NCBI RefSeq assembly: GCF_002128425.1
Contig: NZ_NESS01000010.1
Span: 1-64,000, forward strand
Direction: 5' to 3'
Source of the DNA: Gottfriedia acidiceleris
Lineage (GTDB): Bacteria; Bacillota; Bacilli; Bacillales; Bacillaceae_G
Length of the DNA stretch: 64,000 nucleotides
The notes beneath the pieces were generated by a model. The model was not told the origin of the DNA and did not search any database. It worked only from the letters and a program-made list of their open reading frames with translations. This document shows positions 6,895 to 38,147 of the stretch, piece by piece; position 1 is the stretch's first letter; each line of letters begins with the position of its first letter. The translations under genes were made by a program, and so were the position numbers.

Positions 6895-7218
6895 ATTTAT
6901 TCCTCCTAATTAAATTTAAGTTAAAACGTAATTATTACGAATTAAACTTTGTTAAACAATTATAAATCGGATTAATTACGTTTTGCAATATTTAATTATT
7001 AAATATTTAACAAAACTATCATTATTCAAATACGTTGAGGCATAATCGAGATTCCAATCGATCAGATTAGGATTACTAAATAATAATAAAATAAAGATTG
7101 ATATTCTTTTTTCTAATATTCATTTGATTAATTAGATAAGTAAAATTTTCTAATTAAGTAAAGGATATTTAATGAGTAGTTAAAATTAAAATACTAGCTA
7201 TTTAAGGAGGTATTGTGT
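6895..7218. other. Divergent intergenic region between zagA and the LysM/GH18 gene
   Basis: 324 AT-rich bases. They hold the zagA leader, its Zur box and a weaker half-site (ATTACGTTTT near 6976), and the AAGGAGG site at 7204-7210 of the next gene. I see no gene and no RNA-like structure. Confidence 0.7.
6926..6940. promoter_or_regulatory. Zur box upstream of zagA
   Basis: ACGTAATTATTACGA, a perfect 13-bp palindrome CGTAAT-T-ATTACG on the Bacillus Zur consensus. On the leftward strand it overlaps a plausible -10 that follows TTGTTT by about 16 bases, the geometry expected for repression. Confidence 0.88.
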
Positions 7219-8547
7219 TTGCCTAAGCGTTTAGTAATATTCCTTTTCACTTTATTATTTTTGTTATTATCTCCAGTTTTAAATGCTCATGCTTTGATTG
7301 TATATGAAGTAAAATCGGGGGATACCTTGAACAAAATATCTAAACAATACAAATTAAATACAAAAAGTTTTGCAAATATGAATGGATTAGATCGCAATGA
7401 TAAACTTGTAATTGGACAATCTTTAATAATTCCTGGGTCTACTTATTATGTGAAACAAGGAGAAACATTATGGGATATTGCATTTCGTCATTCAATAAAT
7501 ATTAATTATTTGAAAACTAAAAATCATATGACTAGCGATGTCGTAATTCCAGGCCAAAAATTATTTATTCCTTCTTCTCCTAAAATTACAATTTGGACAG
7601 GTTCTTACTTAATTCCTAAAAATCAAAAAACTAATAAATGGATGATTGATTATTATAAAAAGTCACTGACAAGTATTTTTATATTTGAATTTCACCCAAC
7701 TTCACAAGGGAAATTAATTAAAGTAAAAGAAAATCAGTCTACTCAGATAGCTTGGAAAAATCACATTCTTCCGTACGCTACATTAACGAATATTAGTAAA
7801 AAAGGTTTCGATCCAAAACTAGTGCATTCATTACTTAGTAATACAGCAATGCGAAAAAAGTTAGTAACTAACATCTATACTCTTTTAGACAAAAATGACT
7901 ACAAAGGAATAATGATAGATTTTGAATCACTAAACCCTGAAGATCGGAATAACCTTAATTTATTTATAAAAGCATTATCTGAGAAACTTCATCGTTCTAA
8001 AATGGAAGTTTTAATGGCGATGCCACCAAAGGAAGCGGATCATATTCCTCAATTTTATGATGCTTATGATTATCACACTCTTGGTAAATATGTTGATAAG
8101 ATGTTTTTAATGACATATAACTGGCATTGGCCGAACAGTCCCTCAGGTCCAATTGCTCCATTAAATGAAGTGAGAAAAACGTTAAATTATGTTGTAACCG
8201 TTGTACCCAAATCAAAATTATTATTAGGAATTCCTCAGTATGCCTACGATTGGCCCGTTACTGGTGAAAAACGAAAAGGTGTCGCATATTCCACTCAAAA
8301 TGCAATTAAAATGTATAAAAAATATGAAAGTGAAGTCTATTTTGATCGGGAAACATTATCACCAGCATTTCGTTACACTGATAAAGATGGAATTATCCAT
8401 GACGTTTGGTTTGAAGATGCTCGAAGTTTACTAGCAAAATTTCACCTTGTAAAAGAATATGCTTTAGGAGGATTGGGGTGTTGGCATCTAGGTATTACTG
8501 CGCCTCAGACTGAACAATTAGTAATAAATCAATTTAAAATTAAATAA
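7219..8547 (+). CDS. Secreted LysM-glycoside hydrolase family 18 protein (spore cortex/peptidoglycan glucosaminidase type)
   Basis: Probable N-acetylglucosaminidase acting on peptidoglycan; the architecture resembles SleL/YaaH-type spore cortex-lytic enzymes, but here a signal peptide precedes it (PKRLVIFLFTLLFLLLSPV, cleavage near AHA). Two LysM modules follow (VKSGDTLNKISKQY, residues ~30-72; VKQGETLWDIAFRH, ~75-120), then a GH18 barrel (~130-440) with the catalytic-type motif GIMIDFESL (D and E) and the barrel strands MFLMTYNWHW and LLGIPQYAYDW. I place the start at TTG 7219, 8 bases after AAGGAGG; the TTG at 7213 is too close to that site. Its neighbours are an amidase and a deacetylase, both on the opposite strand. 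Whether it acts in germination or vegetative wall turnover cannot be told from sequence. Confidence 0.85.
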   Translation: MPKRLVIFLFTLLFLLLSPVLNAHALIVYEVKSGDTLNKISKQYKLNTKSFANMNGLDRNDKLVIGQSLIIPGSTYYVKQGETLWDIAFRHSININYLKTKNHMTSDVVIPGQKLFIPSSPKITIWTGSYLIPKNQKTNKWMIDYYKKSLTSIFIFEFHPTSQGKLIKVKENQSTQIAWKNHILPYATLTNISKKGFDPKLVHSLLSNTAMRKKLVTNIYTLLDKNDYKGIMIDFESLNPEDRNNLNLFIKALSEKLHRSKMEVLMAMPPKEADHIPQFYDAYDYHTLGKYVDKMFLMTYNWHWPNSPSGPIAPLNEVRKTLNYVVTVVPKSKLLLGIPQYAYDWPVTGEKRKGVAYSTQNAIKMYKKYESEVYFDRETLSPAFRYTDKDGIIHDVWFEDARSLLAKFHLVKEYALGGLGCWHLGITAPQTEQLVINQFKIK

Positions 8548-8624: not shown

Positions 8625-9338
8625 CTATTTTAAATAATCAATCATCCCATCAACTATTGAACTTGTTATATTTTTTTGAAATTCTCTTGAAGCCATTCGT
8701 GCTTCATCAATTGAATTTGAAATGTATCCAAGTTCCAATAAGATTGCAGGTCGAGAATTTTCTCTTAATACATAGTAATCACCTGAACTTACTCCACGAT
8801 CTCGTGCATCCAATCCATTTTTAAAAATAAAATCATGTATTAATGCTGCTAATGGCTCGTCCGATTTTTTATAATAATAACTTGTTATCCCTTCAACTTC
8901 ATTTGTAAAAAAGGCATCAAAATGAATACTAACAAATAAATCTGCATTGTTTTCTTCAGCAATTTTCACACGATCCGCAAGTGGTACTTTCACGTCATCG
9001 TTACGGGTTAATATTACCTTAGCCCCAGTTCGTTTACTTAATTCATTTTGTATATTTTTGACCATTACTAATGTTACATCTTTTTCATTCGTTCCATTTT
9101 GACCACTTGCACCTATGTCTTCTCCACCATGTCCTGCATCAATTACAATTGTTTTACCAGTTAATATCTTTTCAGAAGATGAATTTCCTTTATTTCTATT
9201 TTCAGTTGATGCGTGAGCTGAGTATTCTTTATTTATTGTTATTCCATTATCTTTAAGTTTGATAAAAAACATTACCGTTATAATTGATATGATTAAAAAT
9301 AAGAAGTTTCTTATCTTCCTATTTTTCTTTTGATTCAT
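8625..9338 (-). CDS. N-acetylmuramoyl-L-alanine amidase (Amidase_3), membrane-anchored
   Basis: Zinc amidase that cleaves the MurNAc-L-Ala bond of peptidoglycan. An N-terminal signal anchor (IRNFLFLIISIITVMFFI, residues 8-25) is followed by a linker and the Amidase_3 domain (~60-235). The zinc ligands are visible in IDAGHGGEDIGA (His), NEKDVTLVMV (Glu) and VSIHFDAF (His), and the catalytic Glu in ILLELGYISN. At 237 residues it is close in size to CwlD, but it is not clearly that orthologue. The start used is ATG 9338 after GGGGGG; the upstream ATG at 9359 lacks a ribosome site. Sequence resembling the 11-bp repeat of the nearby two-component regulon lies about 60 bases upstream, so it may be controlled with the sugar importer. 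Confidence 0.85.
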   Translation of the reverse strand: MNQKKNRKIRNFLFLIISIITVMFFIKLKDNGITINKEYSAHASTENRNKGNSSSEKILTGKTIVIDAGHGGEDIGASGQNGTNEKDVTLVMVKNIQNELSKRTGAKVILTRNDDVKVPLADRVKIAEENNADLFVSIHFDAFFTNEVEGITSYYYKKSDEPLAALIHDFIFKNGLDARDRGVSSGDYYVLRENSRPAILLELGYISNSIDEARMASREFQKNITSSIVDGMIDYLK

Positions 9339-9388
9339 AGAAATCCCCCCTAGTTTCAAACTATCTTTTAGATATTTAAGTCTAATAG

Positions 9389-9421
9389 TTGCTAGAAAGA
9401 TGAAATGAAGATTAAAATTTT
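9389..9421. promoter_or_regulatory. Weaker copy of the 11-bp tandem repeat, upstream of the amidase
   Basis: ATGAAATGAAG at 9400-9410 is identical to a unit found at 12015-12025. The flanking 11-mers TTGCTAGAAAG and ATTAAAATTTT are degenerate. It lies 51-62 bases before the amidase start, the same spacing as in the three better copies. Confidence 0.5.
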
Positions 9422-10340
9422 AAAGACGTCGATCATTCCAAAAATTTAGTGAAAAATGTTCGTTCGGGTTATATACCTTAAATGCATACCCTTTTGCTCT
9501 TAAAAAACTAATAATTTCTGGTAGTGCATCCAATGTTGCTTGTTTTTCGTGTAGTAAAATAACCTCCTTATTTTTAGTTGCTTGCTTCTTCACTTCATTA
9601 ACAACTGTCGAAGCGTTAGCATTGTTCTCCCAATCATGTGTATCTACATTCCAATCCCAAATTTTCAATCCTGCGTTAACCGAATCATTACGAAGTTTTA
9701 AACTCAAACCTGGTCTCGATCCATAAGGAGCACGAACTAGTCGAGTGTTTTCACCTGTCACATGATTAATAATTGATAATGTTTGTTCCATTTCTGAAAC
9801 AAAAAAACCTTGTTTATAAAGTCGATGATATTTATGGGTCATACTATGAGCGCCAATGTAATTCCCTTCATGAGCCACTCTTTTTACTTCTTTTTGATGG
9901 TTATTTACGTTTTTTCCAATCATAAAGAAAGTCGCATTTATTTTTTCCCTGTTAAGTACATCAAGTATTTGGTTAGTCAGCGTACTCGGACCATCATCAA
10001 ATGTCAGATAGACTACTTTTTTCTGATCTAGTTTAATTTGTTGCTCGTTATTTGATTGATTGATTTTATTTTGTTGCTCTTGAAAGTTGAGCTTTTGACT
10101 AGTTTCTTTTGGTTTATTTAGTTTCCCGACCTCTGATTTCTTAGCAGTTGATTGTTTGACACTGTTTGTAGAGGTCTTTATTTGTACCTGTTCGCTTTCA
10201 GCACTTTTTGCAACATTTTCAACAGCAAATCCTTTAAATTTACCTACTAAATGGTAAATGAAGAATAATAGTAATACTGCACATAAACTTAAAATTGCTT
10301 TTTTTAACATCCTTTTTCTCTTTCTTTTACGGGATTTCAT
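9420..10340 (-). CDS. Polysaccharide deacetylase (NodB domain), membrane-anchored
   Basis: Metal-dependent deacetylase of cell-wall or chitin-like polysaccharide. A basic N-terminus (KSRKRKRKRMLKK) precedes a single membrane helix (residues ~14-32), then a low-complexity linker to about residue 105 and a NodB domain (~108-290). Its motifs are TFDDGPS (catalytic Asp and metal Asp), HSMTHKYH (metal His pair), RAPYGSRPG, WDWNVDTHDW and ILLHEK. The polar, lysine-rich linker suggests the domain works at the outer face of the membrane. It starts at ATG 10340 with only a modest ribosome site. Three 11-bp repeats lie 56-88 bases upstream, matching those before the sugar-binding protein and importer genes. 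Confidence 0.88.
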   Translation of the reverse strand: MKSRKRKRKRMLKKAILSLCAVLLLFFIYHLVGKFKGFAVENVAKSAESEQVQIKTSTNSVKQSTAKKSEVGKLNKPKETSQKLNFQEQQNKINQSNNEQQIKLDQKKVVYLTFDDGPSTLTNQILDVLNREKINATFFMIGKNVNNHQKEVKRVAHEGNYIGAHSMTHKYHRLYKQGFFVSEMEQTLSIINHVTGENTRLVRAPYGSRPGLSLKLRNDSVNAGLKIWDWNVDTHDWENNANASTVVNEVKKQATKNKEVILLHEKQATLDALPEIISFLRAKGYAFKVYNPNEHFSLNFWNDRRL

Positions 10341-10395
10341 CTTTCTTTCACCGCACTCTCCACTCCTTGAATATCTTTACAATAAAAATAAAGGT

Positions 10396-10428
10396 TCCAA
10401 ATAAAGATGAGATTAAGTTGAGATTAAG
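10396..10428. promoter_or_regulatory. Tandem 11-bp direct repeats upstream of the deacetylase
   Basis: Units TCCAAATAAAG, ATGAGATTAAG and TTGAGATTAAG lie head to tail with exact 11-bp spacing, about one helical turn. OmpR-family regulators typically bind such direct repeats, so these are candidate sites for the response regulator encoded at 13977-14657. Confidence 0.65.
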
Positions 10429-10493
10429 TATTAATGAAGAATGATAAAAGTTGACAAAAAAGGATCAAAATTCTGCTTGTTACTATTTCTGGA

Positions 10494-10522
10494 TAAAAAA
10501 AGAGACCATTTTATTGGTCTCC
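10494..10522 (-). terminator. Terminator of the sugar-binding protein gene
   Basis: Leftward, GGAGACC pairs with GGTCTC around AATAAAAT and is followed by seven T. Confidence 0.92.
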
Positions 10523-10541
10523 TAGAATTCTCTTTATCCTT

Positions 10542-11957
10542 CTACTCGTTTAAATAGGTCATTACTTTGTTCTGTATAATTTCTGCCACACTTTCCGCAG
10601 ATTTTTGACCATCAAAAAAGCTTGGCGTTTCCTCTGAGAGAATTTTTTGAACCTTCTCATTCCATCTTACTTCTGTGTTCGCTTCAGCAATCATCTGTTT
10701 AAGTGGTTGAAGCGACTCTTCTGTTACCGTTATCGGTCCGCCTTTGCCACCATTACCTTTTGTATTTTCTGCCTTTCCATCTATTACATCGGCAAATACC
10801 TTCTCATTTGCTTCAATATTCACAGTGAACATATCCCTTACTGATTGACTTTGTATTTCATAAGAAAGTAAAAATTTCAAGTAATCCCATGCTTCCATTT
10901 TGACAGTGGAATTTACATTCATCGCATATCGATCATATCCACTGAAGGTAACACCTGATTCTTTTTCAGAAGAATGTGGAAATTCGTAAATGGACGTATT
11001 ATTATTGTTATAAATAGCTGAACGCATTGCATAGTCGCTTGGAGAATAGATTGCTGAGCTTGTAAAATACGTTTTTGTTGGTTCGGTCGGTTGAGTCGAT
11101 AAAACGCCATCATCATACATTTTTTTTACTTGCTTGAGTAAATCAATAAATAACGAAGAATCAAATTTGGCTTCTTTTTTCTCCAAATCAACAAGTCGGT
11201 CGTAGTTTTCATCTGAGAAAACCAAAGGATTTAGGATACCTAAAGGTGAAACGTTCATCACAGTCTCAAGTCTCCCTTTCGTTTTTAGCTGTTTGCTTAT
11301 TTCTGTAAATCTAGTCCAAGTCCAATTTTGGCTGTCATCTATTTGGACGCCTGATTTCGAAATTGCCTCCTTATTTCCAAATAAAGCACCTAATGAAAAA
11401 TGCGTTGGTAAAATGTAAAGTCCACCATTTATTTTAGAATGTTCAAGAATGTTCATGTAATATTGACTTTTGTCAAAAGACGTATCGATATCAATGTATT
11501 GATTAAGATCAACAAAGGCATTTTTATCAATGTATCGATCAATCGGCAAACTTTGGTCGTTCAAGATGAATAAATCCGCACCTTTTCCAGATAGCACTTC
11601 TGTTGTCGTCTGATTCACGTATTTCTCAAGTTCAAGAAGAGACATTCCGCCACCGCCCGAAGCAAAGCTTTTCAGTTTAATCGTGATATTTGGATGTTTT
11701 TTTTCATATTCCTTCGCAGCCAATTCAAAGTCCGGAAATTTACCCATGACTGAGATCGTAATTGTTTTTTTCTCATCCTTGCTTACCTTTGACGAAAGAT
11801 CTTCTCGATTCATGACATTCACGGTGTCTTTATCACTATTCTTATCGTTATTTTGTTGGGTGTTATTACTTTCCTTACTTTGTGTTTTTCCAATACTACA
11901 ACCAACTAAACTAAACATTACGATTAAACTCATCATTAAAGCTACTATTCTTTTCAT
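10542..11957 (-). CDS. Extracellular sugar-binding lipoprotein of an ABC importer (family 1)
   Basis: Solute-binding lipoprotein that should deliver a carbohydrate to the two permeases encoded at 14740-16542. The signal peptide and lipobox are MKRIVALMMSLIVMFSLVGC (Cys 20 lipidated), followed by a polar Asn/Lys/Asp linker to about residue 60 and an SBP_bac_1 fold starting ITISVMGKFPDFELAAKEY. The C-terminal half contains SGYDRYAMNVNSTVKMEAWDYLKF, typical of family 1 proteins, though here the motifs are loose. At 471 residues it is somewhat longer than usual. It has its own 11-bp repeat promoter 47 bases upstream and its own terminator, and is separated from the importer operon by the histidine kinase. 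The substrate cannot be read from sequence. Confidence 0.85.
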   Translation of the reverse strand: MKRIVALMMSLIVMFSLVGCSIGKTQSKESNNTQQNNDKNSDKDTVNVMNREDLSSKVSKDEKKTITISVMGKFPDFELAAKEYEKKHPNITIKLKSFASGGGGMSLLELEKYVNQTTTEVLSGKGADLFILNDQSLPIDRYIDKNAFVDLNQYIDIDTSFDKSQYYMNILEHSKINGGLYILPTHFSLGALFGNKEAISKSGVQIDDSQNWTWTRFTEISKQLKTKGRLETVMNVSPLGILNPLVFSDENYDRLVDLEKKEAKFDSSLFIDLLKQVKKMYDDGVLSTQPTEPTKTYFTSSAIYSPSDYAMRSAIYNNNNTSIYEFPHSSEKESGVTFSGYDRYAMNVNSTVKMEAWDYLKFLLSYEIQSQSVRDMFTVNIEANEKVFADVIDGKAENTKGNGGKGGPITVTEESLQPLKQMIAEANTEVRWNEKVQKILSEETPSFFDGQKSAESVAEIIQNKVMTYLNE

Positions 11958-12003
11958 TTTTTCATCTCCATTTCACTTATTAAGTTAAAGTAAGAATAAA
12001 CTC

Positions 12004-12036
12004 TTCAAATAAAGATGAAATGAAGATGAAATCAAG
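12004..12036. promoter_or_regulatory. Tandem 11-bp direct repeats upstream of the sugar-binding protein
   Basis: TTCAAATAAAG, ATGAAATGAAG and ATGAAATCAAG lie head to tail with exact 11-bp spacing, ending 47 bases before the start codon. Same motif as at 10396, 16608 and (weak) 9389. Confidence 0.7.
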
Positions 12037-12105
12037 TTTTTTAAAAGATTGATAAAAATTTTAACATAATAAAAGGTCGGTTAATTCTAGGAGCGTTGGC
12101 TTGAA

Positions 12106-12133
12106 ATAAAAAGTCGCCCTTTAACTAGGGCGA
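12106..12133 (-). terminator. Terminator after the histidine kinase
   Basis: Leftward, TCGCCCT pairs with AGGGCGA around a short loop and is followed by CTTTTTATT. Confidence 0.85.
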
Positions 12134-12159
12134 TCCAATTAAATATTCCAAACATATTT

Positions 12160-13980
12160 TTACTTATTTTTATTTAAGCAAAAGTAAAATAATACGCCAT
12201 CCGATGTATTCATGACCCCGTATTGCGCACCATGTAATTCTAATATATTTTTCGAAATGGCAAGTCCTAACCCAGTACTTCCTTCTGAACGATGTCGGGA
12301 CGTATCACCACGATAGAAACGTTCCCAAATCCTTTCTAATTGGTCCTTTGGAATATGTGAGCCCTTATTTTCCACGCATACTTTCACTTGTTCATCTTCA
12401 ATTGTCGTTGAGATATAAATATGTTCATGAACAGGGGTATAACGGATTGCGTTTGTAATATAGTTCGTAATGACTTGTTCAATTCGATGTTGATTAGCGA
12501 ATACTTCAATTGATGCTAAGTCTTTATGAACTGTTAGTTCCTTTTTCTCAATTTCTACAGATAATTGATTACAAACATAATCAATTACTATATCAATAAA
12601 AAAGGGTTCCATTTTCATTTTATACGTTCCAGACTCGTATTTTGCTAGTTCAAGCATATCAACGATTAATAGATCCATCTTGTCGACTTCTTTTTCCATC
12701 GCTTCAAAATAGTAATCCTTCTTATGACTCGCAACACCGTCTTTTAGTATCGATATACAGCTTTTCATAATACTGAGTGGTGTCTTCAATTCATGCGAAA
12801 CACCTGAAATGAACTCTTTTCTTGTATTTTCTAATTGTTTTTCTTTCTCAATATCTTGTTTTAATTGTGTAATATGAGAATGTAAAGTATTCGAAAGCAA
12901 ATTAATATTTTGTGATAAATCACCAATCTCGTCTTTCGAATGATATTCAATTCGTTCTGAAAAATCTAAATGTGCAATTTTGCTAGTTGTATCGTTTATT
13001 CTTAATAAAGGTCTTGCAATTTTGAGTGAATAGTAAATTGACGCCAAAATTGTAAGAAGTAAAACGAATGCTATGATATAAACAAAATAATCTTTTACCA
13101 TTTGAACAGCTTCATCTACTGGTTGTAAGGAAGCCATCGAAAAAATATAATTTGTTTCACCATTTTTATCTTTAATCGGATCGATAAACAATTTATATTT
13201 AATTCCATTTTGTTCATAATCAAGCGTTTTGAAAGTTGTGTATTGGTTTTTTTCATCAAACAAAAGACTTGTTTGGAATTCATTAATACGATCCATTAAT
13301 AAACTATTACTATATATGATGCTTGAGACATCATTACGATTAGGAACACGTACATCTTGTATGTTTCCCTTTGTTCGGTTGATTCGATAATTAGTGACAT
13401 ATTTTTGGGTTAATTCTACTTTCTCTTTTAAATTGAAATGTTGATTAGTAGGCTTTAATTCTTTTTCAATGTTTGTCCAAATATATTGATTTATCCAATA
13501 TGAATTATTCTGTACTGAATATAGATAGAATGGGATCATTCTATTGTTTTTTTCAACAGTATATATATCCACACTATCACCTTTTGAAATCGAAAGCGTA
13601 TCTTTTAAAAAATCTTCAGCTTTAAAAAAATGATATAAAGGAACTCTTAAAAAATGATATGAACTTTTATCTTCTACTATTTTAATTTCCGCATAATAAT
13701 CATTTGCTGTTTTTATATTTCCATTGTGATCTAATGTAGTAATCCATGTATTTTGAGCACGATAAAAGTCTTGCTCTAATTGCTGGATTGTTTGAACATT
13801 ACCTTCGCTTTTTAGGTATTGTTTCTCAAATGATTTGATACTTGATTTTAGATCATTTACTTTTCGATTTGCATAGTATTGTTTAAAAAAGATAGTTTGA
13901 CCAATATAAATAGATCCAGTGATAAGCAAACACAAAGTTGTTGTTAATAAAAATAGTTTTAAGACTATACCGAATTTCAT
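12160..13980 (-). CDS. Sensor histidine kinase with a large extracytoplasmic domain
   Basis: Membrane sensor paired with the response regulator just upstream. Helix 1 is at residues ~5-30, an extracytoplasmic sensor region spans ~32-297, helix 2 is ~298-320, a HAMP linker follows (~322-375), and the HisKA box is FISGVSHELKTPLS with the phospho-acceptor His near 396. The HATPase domain (~480-600) has ITNYITNAIRYTP (N box) and GLGLAISKN (G2 box). The extracytoplasmic region has no recognisable PAS/Cache motif that I can name. The ATG overlaps the response-regulator stop by four bases (ATGA), so translation is coupled. Location in a sugar-importer operon suggests that it senses the sugar or wall fragment, alone or through the binding protein. 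Confidence 0.9.
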   Translation of the reverse strand: MKFGIVLKLFLLTTTLCLLITGSIYIGQTIFFKQYYANRKVNDLKSSIKSFEKQYLKSEGNVQTIQQLEQDFYRAQNTWITTLDHNGNIKTANDYYAEIKIVEDKSSYHFLRVPLYHFFKAEDFLKDTLSISKGDSVDIYTVEKNNRMIPFYLYSVQNNSYWINQYIWTNIEKELKPTNQHFNLKEKVELTQKYVTNYRINRTKGNIQDVRVPNRNDVSSIIYSNSLLMDRINEFQTSLLFDEKNQYTTFKTLDYEQNGIKYKLFIDPIKDKNGETNYIFSMASLQPVDEAVQMVKDYFVYIIAFVLLLTILASIYYSLKIARPLLRINDTTSKIAHLDFSERIEYHSKDEIGDLSQNINLLSNTLHSHITQLKQDIEKEKQLENTRKEFISGVSHELKTPLSIMKSCISILKDGVASHKKDYYFEAMEKEVDKMDLLIVDMLELAKYESGTYKMKMEPFFIDIVIDYVCNQLSVEIEKKELTVHKDLASIEVFANQHRIEQVITNYITNAIRYTPVHEHIYISTTIEDEQVKVCVENKGSHIPKDQLERIWERFYRGDTSRHRSEGSTGLGLAISKNILELHGAQYGVMNTSDGVLFYFCLNKNK

Positions 13981-14657
13981 AGGGTTTCCTCAAATTTATA
14001 TCCGGTTCGAATGATCGTTGAAATCAGTTTTGATTTACTGCCTAATTTTGCACGTAAATTACGTATATGTGTATTAATTGTTCGATCATCCCCATTGTAG
14101 TCATAACCCCAAACCTTTTGCACTAGTTGTTCCCTGGTAATCACAATCCCATGATTTTGCATTAAATAAGTTAATATTTCAAATTCAGTATGGGTTAAAT
14201 TGATAAAGACTCCATCTACTTTGACTTTCCTAGAAGAAAAATCGACTGAGATACCATTTTTGGTTAATGTTTCGTTTGAAGGCTCATTTATTTTATATCG
14301 ACTTTCAAGCAAACGTTTAACTCTGGCAAGCAAAATTGGTGGACTATAAGGCTTTGTAACGTAGTCATCGGCTCCTAACTCAAACCCAAGCAGTGTATCA
14401 TCTTCATCAACCCGTGCTGTTAACATGATGATAGGAACATTGGAAGTCTTTCGAATTCTTCTACAAACTGCCCACCCATCAACCTTTGGTAACATGATAT
14501 CAAGAATAATGAGATGAAAATCTTGTACTTGAAATAACTCTAATGCTTGTTCACCATCAATCGCTTCAATTACTTCATGACCTTCATTTACTAAATAATC
14601 TTTTACGATTTCACGTAAAATTGTTTCATCTTCTACTATTAATATTTTATATGGCAT
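13977..14657 (-). CDS. OmpR-family response regulator
   Basis: Two-domain regulator of 226 residues. The receiver (1-115) has the acidic pair in VEDE, the phospho-acceptor Asp in LIILDIMLPKVDGW (about residue 53), the conserved Thr in LTARV and Lys in VTKPYSP. The winged-helix effector (~130-222) has EILTYLMQNHG, TREQLVQKVWGYDYNGDDR and RNLRAKLG...RTGYKF. It is the likely ligand of the 11-bp direct repeats in front of the importer operon, the binding-protein gene, the deacetylase gene and perhaps the amidase gene. It follows the MalG-type permease gene by 82 bases with no terminator seen, so it is probably in that operon. Confidence 0.92.
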   Translation of the reverse strand: MPYKILIVEDETILREIVKDYLVNEGHEVIEAIDGEQALELFQVQDFHLIILDIMLPKVDGWAVCRRIRKTSNVPIIMLTARVDEDDTLLGFELGADDYVTKPYSPPILLARVKRLLESRYKINEPSNETLTKNGISVDFSSRKVKVDGVFINLTHTEFEILTYLMQNHGIVITREQLVQKVWGYDYNGDDRTINTHIRNLRAKLGSKSKLISTIIRTGYKFEETL

Positions 14658-14739
14658 GATCTATCCACGCTCACTTTCTATGCTCTCCCATACTACTATT
14701 TTATCCAACAAGGAATTTTCTTAAATAGTCATGGATCCA

Positions 14740-15642
14740 TTAATCTTTTGCTCCTGATAATTGAATTCCTTTGATTAAATATTTTTTTGCGAATCCAAAA
14801 ATCAATAACATTGGTGCCATATAAAGAATTGATGCTGCGAAACCAACCCCTCTTGTATCTTGGATGATTTGAGATAAATAAAGTGATAATGGATATTTTG
14901 ATGGATTATCTAGAAAAATAAGTGGTTGTTCGACCATGTTCCAATAATCGGCGAATAATAACACAACTAGCGCTGCAAGTCCTGGTCGAATAAGTGGTAA
15001 AATGATCTTAATAAAAATTGCAAAATGACCAGCCCCATCTATTTTTGCAGCTTCGATATATGAATAAGGTATCGTCATGACGAATTGTCTGAGCATAAAC
15101 ACACCAAACGCACCAAATATTCCAGGGAAAATGATGGCTCCAAAACTATTTAAGATCCCTAATTGATCCGCAATAAGATAATTCGGTACAAGTGTTACTT
15201 GAAAAGGCATCAACATAGTAATCATATACACTAAAAATAATGCGTCTCTTCCTTTGAACTTTAGTTTTCCAAAGACATATGCAGCAAGCGATGCAACGAT
15301 CAGCTGACCTAATATGATTGGGAAGACCATTAGGACGGAATTCCCATAAAATTTCATATTTGATTGTTCTTTATCAATGAATGATTGTTTCTTGTCAAAG
15401 AAGACCTTATATTGTTCAAACGAAAATTGTTTAGGAATCAACTTCAAATGCACGAACGAATCTTTGTGTCCTGTATTATTATCTTGTTGAACTCCATTTT
15501 CTGAAGGATAATGACCGAGCATTTCATTTTCTGTCATAAAAGAATTTGAAAACGTAAAAACGACTGGAAAAATCATCATTATTGACATAATTAATAAAAA
15601 AAAGGTTAAAATCCATTTGCGAATTAAACTATTGAATTTCAT
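14740..15642 (-). CDS. Carbohydrate ABC transporter permease (MalG type)
   Basis: Inner-membrane permease of a CUT1 sugar importer. There are about six helices (first at residues ~10-30), an unusually polar extracytoplasmic loop after helix 1 (residues ~40-85, ENGVQQDNNTGHKDS), and the EAA loop EAAKIDGAGHFAIFIKIILPL near residues 200-220. The start chosen is ATG 15642, 8 bases after GAGAGG; a GTG at 15651 lies inside that site. The product is 300 residues. It follows the MalF-type gene by 18 bases. No ATPase gene is present; such importers often share an MsmX-type ATPase encoded elsewhere. Confidence 0.9.
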   Translation of the reverse strand: MKFNSLIRKWILTFFLLIMSIMMIFPVVFTFSNSFMTENEMLGHYPSENGVQQDNNTGHKDSFVHLKLIPKQFSFEQYKVFFDKKQSFIDKEQSNMKFYGNSVLMVFPIILGQLIVASLAAYVFGKLKFKGRDALFLVYMITMLMPFQVTLVPNYLIADQLGILNSFGAIIFPGIFGAFGVFMLRQFVMTIPYSYIEAAKIDGAGHFAIFIKIILPLIRPGLAALVVLLFADYWNMVEQPLIFLDNPSKYPLSLYLSQIIQDTRGVGFAASILYMAPMLLIFGFAKKYLIKGIQLSGAKD

Positions 15643-15660
15643 CCTGTTCACCTCTCATTC

Positions 15661-16542
15661 TTAATTCATAAACTTACGATATCGACTTTCAATTGCGAAG
15701 AATACCAACACTAGAATTAAAATACATAAGACCATTAAAGACGCAGCAGCGGTTAGTTTTTGAACGTTTAATGAAGTAAACATATTGTTCATATAGTGCT
15801 GGATCGTATAAATACGATCATATGGATAATCACCTGCGATTAGATAGGTTTCACGGAATACTTTGAAGGAGTTAATAGTACTCATTAAAAAAACAAAAAA
15901 CATCGTTGGCGTTAAGTAAACGAGAGTGACCTGTCTAAATTTAAATAAACGACCTGCACCTTCGAGATCGGCTATCTCATAATAATCTTTTGGAATATTT
16001 TGAAGTCCAGCTAAGAATAGGATTAAGTTGTAGCCAATGTTTTTCCATAAATATACGATGGATACAACTGCGATCGACCAATCTGAATTCATCCAATCGA
16101 CTTGTGTAAAGCCTAAATTCACCAACCAGGAATTAAAAATACCGTTCCAATCAAATAAAATTTGCCATAGCATAACGATCGAAGCGACTGGTACAACAAT
16201 TGGTAAGATAAATGAACTGATTATGACATTTTTAAATAATACTTTTTGATGCAAGCAAAGTGCCAGTAGTAAAGAAATCCCAATTACAAGTGGGACGTTG
16301 ATTGCTGTAAACCAAAATGTATTTGACGCAGCCCTTAAAAATGAAGAACTTGCTAATAGCTCTTTATAATTGAAAAGACCAACGAAAGAACCCCCAACCG
16401 CTCCATCTTTAAATGAATAAATTGTTCCCATAACAAATGGGATTAAATAGAATAGGGAAAAACCAAATAAACTAGGTAATAAGAAAAATGCTGCAACTTT
16501 ACCATCGTTATTTAATCTTTTACGAATGTTCATTGTACTCAC
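15661..16542 (-). CDS. Carbohydrate ABC transporter permease (MalF type)
   Basis: First gene of the importer operon, a CUT1 permease of 293 residues with six helices. Seen are FFLLPSLFGFSLFYLIPF near the N-terminus, the EAA loop EIADLEGAGRLFKFRQVTLVYLTP near residue 205, and a final helix near residue 275. GTG at 16542 or ATG at 16533 may be the start; an AAAGAAG-type site precedes both. Three near-perfect 11-bp repeats lie 66 bases upstream. Together with the MalG protein and the lipoprotein encoded at 10542 it should form the importer, but the genes are split by the two-component system. Confidence 0.9.
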   Translation of the reverse strand: MSTMNIRKRLNNDGKVAAFFLLPSLFGFSLFYLIPFVMGTIYSFKDGAVGGSFVGLFNYKELLASSSFLRAASNTFWFTAINVPLVIGISLLLALCLHQKVLFKNVIISSFILPIVVPVASIVMLWQILFDWNGIFNSWLVNLGFTQVDWMNSDWSIAVVSIVYLWKNIGYNLILFLAGLQNIPKDYYEIADLEGAGRLFKFRQVTLVYLTPTMFFVFLMSTINSFKVFRETYLIAGDYPYDRIYTIQHYMNNMFTSLNVQKLTAAASLMVLCILILVLVFFAIESRYRKFMN

Positions 16543-16607
16543 TTCTTTCTTTAATTGAGTAATTATTATTTGTTTAATAATTCTCCTTGAGAAAGAAGTT
16601 TATCTTA

Positions 16608-16640
16608 ATGAGATAAAGATGAGATAAAGATGAAATAAAG
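16608..16640. promoter_or_regulatory. Three near-perfect 11-bp tandem repeats upstream of the importer operon
   Basis: ATGAGATAAAG, ATGAGATAAAG and ATGAAATAAAG lie head to tail; the first two are identical and the third differs at one base. This is the best copy of the motif. The near end is 66 bases before the first start codon, where an activator of the OmpR family would be expected. Confidence 0.75.
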
Positions 16641-37451: not shown

Positions 37452-38147
37452 ATGAGTATTCAAAATGTGTATCTTTCTATAAAACAAGGGGAAACAGCCA
37501 CAAAACAGAATAGAATTCCTATTACCTTTAATGAAACGTTGATAGGACGTATGTGGGGAAATGATTGCCCAGATATTCCTTTTACAAGTCAATATATTTC
37601 AAGAAAACATGCTTTAATTAGTTTCGATACAGAAGAAAATTACACCATTGTTGATCTCAGTAGTAAACATGGAACACAAGTAAATCATATTTTTATAGAA
37701 AAAAATAAACCATTTTTCCTTCGTGATGGCGATAGTATAACTCTTGCAAGTGGTGCAGCTGTACTTATTTTTCATAATCTATCAGAGAACTTTGGAGACA
37801 CACTTGATATGCCATTAGTTTTAGATAAACAAGTTAACGATTTCAATGGTATAACTGTAAATGTAGTAAAAAGAGAAATTTTAATTGATGGCGTACGAAT
37901 ACATCTAACTAGTAAAGATACAGAATTATTTTTGTTGTTATATCAAAAAGCCAATAGTGCTGTTAGCTATAACGAAATTAAAGTAAATGTTTGGCCGGAA
38001 CGAATGACGAATGATATTGAGCAGCCAGATGTAGGACGTGAAGAAATTAATACCCTTATATATAGATTACGTAAGAAATTAGGTAAATACGGTCAAAAGA
38101 TTGTTTCTGTCCCTCGATATGGCTATATGTTTGAATTAGAAGATTAA
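37452..38147 (+). CDS. FHA domain / winged-helix transcription regulator
   Basis: 231 residues with an unusual domain pair. An FHA domain (~5-115) shows the phosphothreonine-binding features: TLIGRMWGNDC, SQYISRKHALI (the Arg/Ser/His core) and LSSKHGTQVN. A C-terminal winged helix of the Trans_reg_C/OmpR type (~130-230) shows RIHLTSKDTELFLLLYQ, IKVNVWPER and NTLIYRLRKKL...VPRYGYMFEL. The receiver domain typical of OmpR proteins is absent, so phosphothreonine peptides, perhaps from a PrkC-type kinase, may replace Asp phosphorylation as the signal. It starts at ATG 37452 after AAAGGAG. It is divergent from a class B PBP gene, which it may control; this is inference. Confidence 0.85.
   Translation: MSIQNVYLSIKQGETATKQNRIPITFNETLIGRMWGNDCPDIPFTSQYISRKHALISFDTEENYTIVDLSSKHGTQVNHIFIEKNKPFFLRDGDSITLASGAAVLIFHNLSENFGDTLDMPLVLDKQVNDFNGITVNVVKREILIDGVRIHLTSKDTELFLLLYQKANSAVSYNEIKVNVWPERMTNDIEQPDVGREEINTLIYRLRKKLGKYGQKIVSVPRYGYMFELED

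Follow-up and report, generated by a model that had tools for sequence, protein, structure and literature searches.

Tandem 11-bp repeat arrays as candidate operators of an OmpR-family regulator in a Gottfriedia acidiceleris envelope and transport gene cluster

Within a 64,000-nucleotide stretch of the Gottfriedia acidiceleris genome (GCF_002128425.1, contig NZ_NESS01000010.1, positions 1 to 64,000; hereafter the window), a gene cluster encodes two sugar-type ABC permeases, a response regulator and its sensor kinase, a solute-binding protein and two predicted wall enzymes. We find that three of its promoters carry head-to-tail arrays of an 11-bp unit, set in fixed register to the -10 box, and comparison across genomes shows these arrays, their register and their co-occurrence with one family of regulators. 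The arrays very probably constitute the regulon of the local OmpR-family regulator (13977-14657). A first-pass annotation, made from the letters of the window, had proposed such a regulon; the pattern of presence and absence in 72 genomes now argues for it, as do unlinked targets, a common recognition helix and sites that relatives carry before the regulator gene itself. The regulator combines a receiver domain with a C-terminal winged helix-turn-helix (wHTH), and the repeats at its candidate target promoters lie head to tail, one helical turn apart:

16608-16640, minus strand: candidate importer operator array, three units, before the permease-permease-regulator-kinase operon
16597-16602, minus strand: importer -10 box TAAACT, positions 17-22 from the third unit; TATACT in 6/9 orthologous loci
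12004-12036, minus strand: candidate binding-protein operator array, two full units and a partial third, before the binding-protein gene
11993-11998, minus strand: binding-protein -10 box TATTCT, in the same register as that of the importer
10396-10428, minus strand: candidate deacetylase operator array, two units (the first with one deviation) and a partial third, before the deacetylase gene
10385-10390, minus strand: deacetylase -10 box TATTTT, in the same register as that of the importer

Read in the sense of the target genes, all on the minus strand, the unit is CTTnATyTCAT with an 11-bp period, and an OmpR/PhoB-style register divides it into a 7-bp core, TCATCTT, and an AT-rich 4-bp spacer, NATY. 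The units annotated earlier at these three places are present as described. Self-matching at a lag of 11 over 22 bases gave 13 positions scoring at least 18, all within the importer and binding-protein arrays, and none in each of 100 dinucleotide shuffles; among lags 8-15 other than 11, lag 12 alone yielded such positions (n = 3). In a genome-wide scan, a kind of check that the first-pass annotation had suggested, the double unit CTTNATYTCANCTTNATYTCA has four exact matches in the 4.77-Mb genome, all in the cluster and spanning the three arrays, and at up to two mismatches nine matches, six of them in the cluster, against four for a reversed control. One near-match (G000:C41:374864) was rejected; it recurs in the regulator-less genomes G005, G006 and G011, and its neighbouring frames look cytochrome-oxidase-like by eye.

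The register to the -10 box is shared widely. Among 36 arrays from close loci, taken as pairs scoring at least 18/20 (many are mutual orthologues, so they are not independent), TAnnnT stands 16 bases past the first pair in 24 and in one helical phase (5, 16 or 27 bases) in 34, while the next phase accounts for 20 and the others for at most 5; the two arrays without an in-phase TAnnnT are the amidase promoter of genome G012 and a remnant in Neobacillus rhizosphaerae. Distant relatives agree, with TAnnnT at the 16-base offset in 20 of 23 hand-listed sites that were found with a matrix containing no -10. Overlapping registers were left out of these 23, as were five matches that were weak or, as far as we looked, had no suitable following gene (L127:17945, L121:901, L062:11412, L068:11484 and L060:7247); at L119 the register at 1093 (20.0 bits) was taken over that at 1104 (20.2 bits), from which the -10 would stand one unit off, and the matrix scan of distant loci was compared with single-base, not dinucleotide, shuffles.

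A consensus sigma-70 scan paired no -10 of these arrays with a -35, and the arrays, spanning about -50 to -18, lie over the -35 region. PhoB sites overlap the -35 (PMC3348028), and their spacing to the core promoter is strict (PMC10294691); the arrays share both the overlap and the fixed phase. Because the array replaces the -35 at a fixed phase to the -10, activation of the PhoB kind is the most likely mode of action. Cover of the -35 region would also suit a regulator that blocks it, but promoters activated in PhoB style have, according to the same two papers, the layout found here, a -10 kept in one phase without a consensus -35 partner, and we consider repression unlikely.

The strict motif occurs within the genus in 7/7 genomes with a kinase orthologue and 0/6 without. 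Of 397 genomes sampled evenly from the order, seven contain it, exactly those whose kinase is at least 80% identical; 25 others with a kinase match at E <= 1e-90 do not. A looser pattern, comprising the repeat and the -10, was run on 24 genomes with the regulator family (kinases about 40-100% identical, 16 of the genomes drawn from those 25) and on 48 without it. At up to one mismatch it gave 57 matches distributed over 24/24 regulator-family genomes and none in the 48. At exactly two mismatches, 24 further matches appeared in the former set, eight of them far away, and 14 in the latter; the reversed control totalled 14 at up to two mismatches in the 24 genomes.

Most of the 57 matches (53) are no more than 12 kb away from the kinase gene, whose positions are approximate. 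Three of the other four precede one orthologous gene for a small secreted protein in three genomes; the fourth, a perfect match in G014, stands before a third amidase gene, with about 0.95 Mb between it and the kinase. These unlinked matches, together with a convergent arrangement in G103, argue for action in trans. Sites in relatives from other families also precede the regulator gene itself; G003 carries an array directly before it, at a contig start, at a locus where no permease gene was found. The recognition helix (RTINTHIRNLR in the window) conforms to N/S-T/S-H-x-R-N in 28/37 aligned regulators, whose loci carry sites (for L062 and L122 with the qualifications given below), and the seven testable loci with another helix have no matrix site above 8.3 bits.

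Several kinases were considered and set aside. The paralogue in the same genome (C12:101720) and its relatives at L065 and L066 have no matrix match of at least 8 bits at their loci, and the 41-44% identical kinases of G013 and G015-G018 come with no looser-pattern match at up to one mismatch. Two further loci (L128:11287, L129:8261) encode kinases only about 40% identical and carry an array with an in-register -10, that of L128 before an LCP (LytR-CpsA-Psr) gene. Locus L056 (G014:C1:926000-945900) has two tandem regulator-kinase pairs, amidase and deacetylase genes, and six matches at up to two mismatches.

Orthologous clusters were identified in Peribacillus alkalitolerans, Neobacillus rhizosphaerae, N. 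niacini, Mesobacillus zeae, three Bacillus sp. and other genomes of the genus; genomes that occurred twice among the records were entered once each. The importer array is found in the 10 aligned loci having PermF, weakest in N. niacini, the binding-protein array in 8/8 aligned loci whose binding-protein gene is full length, and that of the deacetylase in 7/7 that have a deacetylase gene. Pairwise identity over array and -10 reaches 89% for the importer, against flanks of 65% upstream and 72% downstream, and 89% for the binding protein, against 59% and 73%; G009 is omitted from the binding-protein set and two deacetylase-less loci from the deacetylase set.

Two of these clusters, in N. rhizosphaerae and M. 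zeae (L044, L045), gave no deacetylase match; at L044:11534 a deacetylase-promoter-like pair is kept, followed by sequence that aligns with the tail of the deacetylase gene. The P. alkalitolerans cluster has a PGA_cap gene, of capsule synthesis type, between its permease and regulator genes (L040:5895-7112).

The fourth site named by the first-pass annotation, before the amidase gene, belongs to the set by alignment with nine other loci and survives in the window genome as a remnant only:

9389-9421, minus strand: amidase operator remnant, with one complete and one broken unit
9379-9384, minus strand: amidase -10 box TAGACT, assigned by alignment; its register is off by one base relative to the remnant

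The remnant scores 16/20 over two units, and because four other places in the window score equally, it does not rise above background from the window genome alone. Nine other aligned loci have a longer amidase array, with two near-canonical units (17-19/20) and two degenerate ones; the window copy is 23 bp shorter (22 against G007, which itself lacks one base). TAnnnT follows the amidase pair at 27 bases in 7/9 of these loci and at 26 in G007, and is missing in G012. The amidase site of the window strain is thus probably weak or lost.

A fifth target has met a similar fate in this strain. The unlinked secreted-protein gene encodes 176 residues behind the same promoter and is full length in four related genomes, whereas the window strain's copy (L137, G000:C12:212310-212651) retains the last 114 residues, its first 62 codons and promoter being gone. 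The protein has no Pfam match over cut-off. Directly beside the truncated gene, on the opposite strand, is an IS200-like transposase frame (PF01797).

Some observations weigh against assigning the arrays to the local regulator. The deacetylase array stays below 18 in the lag-11 self-match, and with its -10 it is 87% identical among loci, compared with 76% upstream and 89% in the downstream leader; the amidase array and -10 reach 74%, compared with 80% in the upstream coding sequence and 69% downstream. Conservation alone thereby speaks for the importer and binding-protein arrays, less for that of the deacetylase and not for that of the amidase. The register is imperfect as well: the G012 amidase promoter has no in-phase TAnnnT, the G007 one is displaced by one base, and among distant relatives two regulator-gene sites have their -10 one unit closer and a C39-peptidase site has none. 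The 24 regulator-family genomes were picked once their loci were known to contain arrays, and only four of their 57 matches are unlinked, three of these before a single orthologous gene; given this linkage, part of the co-occurrence of motif and regulator reflects inheritance of one locus. Three of the 24 (G196, G306, G364) have kinases of only 40-41% identity, and 11 of the 48 regulator-less genomes, nine of them from the 25 without the strict motif, carry kinase relatives of 37-44%, so that kinase identity alone draws no line; on the sequences compared, the recognition helix does better in separating motif genomes. Even the helix has exceptions: L062 has it beside a weak site without a -10, and L122 has it without a matrix match of at least 8 bits, yet with one exact looser-pattern match. 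Finally, the genome encodes 24 wHTH domains of PF00486 type, 23 of them besides the local regulator.

The genes of the cluster are ordered permease-permease-regulator-kinase, then binding protein, deacetylase and amidase:

15661-16542, minus strand: ABC permease, MalF/UgpA type (PF00528); conserved start ATG 16533 by alignment
14740-15651, minus strand: ABC permease, MalG/UgpE type (PF00528)
13977-14657, minus strand: OmpR/PhoB-family response regulator (PF00072 and PF00486 over cut-off)
12160-13980, minus strand: sensor histidine kinase with a large N-terminal domain (HAMP, HisKA, HATPase_c; orthologues)
12114-12133, minus strand: terminator-like hairpin after the kinase gene
10542-11957, minus strand: oligosaccharide-type solute-binding lipoprotein (PF01547; PDB sequence and fold matches; lipoprotein signal by eye)
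10500-10523, minus strand: terminator-like hairpin after the binding-protein gene
9420-10340, minus strand: predicted peptidoglycan/polysaccharide deacetylase, NodB fold (PF01522)
8625-9338, minus strand: predicted N-acetylmuramoyl-L-alanine amidase, Amidase_3 (PF01520)
7213-8547, convergent with the cluster: LysM-GH18 gene, array-free

Gene order and the terminator-like hairpins suggest that the permease, regulator and kinase genes are most likely co-transcribed, in which case expression of the regulator and kinase would depend on the importer array too. The distance of 47-66 bases from array to start codon given earlier holds for the other genes; the importer array lies about 75 bases upstream, because orthologues align to ATG 16533, not to GTG 16542. 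The earlier statement that this is the only such regulator in the window is right for response regulators: the other wHTH protein found there (37452-38147) is an FHA-wHTH protein (PF00498 and PF00486) with no receiver-domain match. The closest solved relatives of the deacetylase are named peptidoglycan GlcNAc deacetylases, and the amidase has CwlV as its best solved relative, with LytH within the first four.

More distant loci indicate what such a regulon may be for. Among 17 loci with kinases about 36-61% identical, 11 have amidase and deacetylase genes near the regulator, one an amidase gene only and five neither, and none has an importer orthologue adjoining the regulator; L123 and L124 encode permease homologues of 25-34% identity further off. 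The genes checked in relatives that have a site encode the regulator, deacetylases, amidases, an LCP protein and four proteins of GDSL type; a weak site also precedes one C39-like peptidase gene. This target set makes envelope remodelling the common theme, a likely role for the system, with the importer apparently added in one lineage. The relatives accordingly support the first-pass annotation in linking the system to genes for peptidoglycan amidase and deacetylase.

Homologous importers in Paenibacillus/Cohnella have an HlyD/RND-adaptor-like gene between permease and binding protein (L047:8404-9582, L048:8721-9881, L049:8702-9859), an odd pairing of an export-type adaptor with sugar-type permeases; those of L048 and L049 sit beside a different OmpR-type pair.

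The first-pass annotation had further suggested wall-fragment sensing and recycling, in which the enzymes release or edit fragments, the importer takes them up and the kinase senses them. In 10/10 aligned loci the importer gene and one or more of the wall-enzyme genes are preceded by arrays, the binding protein is of oligosaccharide type, and the adjoining LysM-GH18 gene possibly encodes a wall glycosidase. That gene, however, is convergent, array-free and not found beside the cluster in orthologous loci, and the annotated cluster genes include neither an ABC ATPase gene nor a wall-sugar catabolism gene. Of the seven regulator-bearing genomes in the genus, three have an incomplete importer: at the locus, G009 and G003 have truncated permeases or lack them, and the binding protein is intact in 4/7. 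A remnant of it comprising the last 102 residues persists in G009 inside a 754-residue open frame (G009:C10:39100-39408). The absence of an adjoining importer orthologue from all 17 distant loci likewise counts against recycling.

The binding protein does little to name a wall ligand. Among solved proteins, CbpC of Clostridium thermocellum is the closest to it, followed by other oligosaccharide binders, and the structural model, which matches many sugar binders, fits CbpC best too; the best relatives bind cellodextrin-, rhamnogalacturonan-, arabino- or starch-type glycans. Chito-oligosaccharide binders rank lower; the protein resembles oligosaccharide binders in general, and the matches do not name a ligand. 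A model of kinase residues 1-320 (mean pLDDT 82.6) predicts a domain of mixed helices and strands, about residues 60-285, that is flanked by two long helices and probably extracellular; a structure search with the model found no PDB match at E <= 0.001, the top matches being mostly Cache- and PAS-type sensors at E 0.01-0.1, and the fold points to no particular ligand. Taken together, we regard recycling as decidedly unlikely. A broader proposal, which we advance only speculatively and think rather unlikely as a whole, is an unnamed envelope-editing two-component system of several Bacillales families, parallel to WalRK, which uses rigid PhoB-like 11-bp promoters to drive its own gene together with a changing set of wall enzymes (deacetylase, amidase, GDSL protein, LCP protein), and which captured a glycan importer in one lineage and thereby closed an edit-uptake-sensing loop.

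The proposed envelope-directed regulon of the local regulator would be of OmpR/PhoB type, and we found no description of this two-component system in the open-licence literature searched. Its mechanism can be likened to PhoB and ArcA sites and its theme lies nearest to WalRK. The PHO box is a 7+4 repeat of 11 bp (PMC4415409), and as at PhoB promoters such direct repeats lie here over the -35 with strict spacing to the core promoter; the core differs (TCATCTT versus CTGTCAT in the PHO box), the targets here are wall and transport genes, and the regulator, at 208.2 of 296.2 bits, scores below the PhoB equivalog cut-off. ArcA sites consist of two to five direct repeats, mostly 11 bp centre to centre (PMC3798270), which matches the multiple repeats seen here; they are described without a fixed place relative to the promoter, whereas these arrays are fixed. 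BceRS-type systems likewise group two-component genes with ABC transporter genes (PMC3023708), but the permeases here are of sugar type (BPD_transp_1), and the kinase has a large N-terminal sensor domain, modelled between long helices, whereas a BceRS-like module pairs an intramembrane-sensing kinase with a translocator that has a large extracytoplasmic loop.

Two other OmpR-type regulators with 11-bp repeats could be imagined to bind the arrays. WalR has the consensus TGTWAH-N5-TGTWAH in B. subtilis, and in C. difficile its overexpression increases expression of pgdA and of amidase genes (PMC9210968), a deacetylase-plus-amidase output like that proposed here. The CiaRH-like pair BAS0540-BAS0541 of Bacillus anthracis, for which autoregulation has been proposed, uses NTTAAG-N5-TTTAAG (PMC4938410), and the reverse complement of its half-site, CTTAA, resembles the CTTnAT half of the unit. 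The WalR pattern, however, occurs in 0/39 promoter stretches checked, and WalRK is reported in all Firmicutes (PMC9210968), whereas the strict motif is found in 7/397 genomes of the order, a far narrower distribution. We reject WalR as the binder on motif and distribution, and the local proteins score below the WalRK equivalog cut-offs (229.3 of 725 bits for WalK, 204.5 of 340 for YycF). For BAS0540, the half-site TTTAAG differs from TCATCTT and the predicted targets differ as well. With the looser motif at up to one mismatch in 0/48 genomes lacking the local regulator's family, another 11-bp-repeat regulator is very unlikely. Chance repeats in AT-rich leaders (window G+C = 31%) have a negligible claim, being already contradicted for the importer, binding-protein and deacetylase arrays by genome-wide uniqueness and the shuffles, which never matched the importer and binding-protein self-match, as well as by cross-genus conservation and the presence/absence pattern.

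Our inferences on binding, on activation as opposed to repression, on the signal and on physiology run as follows. The cue sensed by the kinase would most likely reflect the condition of the envelope; the phosphorylated regulator would then bind the 7+4 repeats head to tail, and the bound array would take the place of the -35 and activate in PhoB style. By this route the regulator may switch on its own permeases-regulator-kinase operon, the binding-protein gene and the wall deacetylase gene, and the amidase gene in relatives with an intact site. The expected output is remodelling of the wall and envelope, to which one lineage would have added a sugar-type importer.

If so, a two-component system gains a defined candidate operator, a regulator and a short, consistent target list. 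The specificity of the operator, with no match at up to one mismatch in 48 genomes that lack the system, permits blind prediction of targets, such as the unlinked amidase gene, and a simple promoter reporter would make the signal searchable. For the organisms that carry it, the system may represent a second route beside WalRK by which wall deacetylation and amidase trimming are tied to an outside signal.

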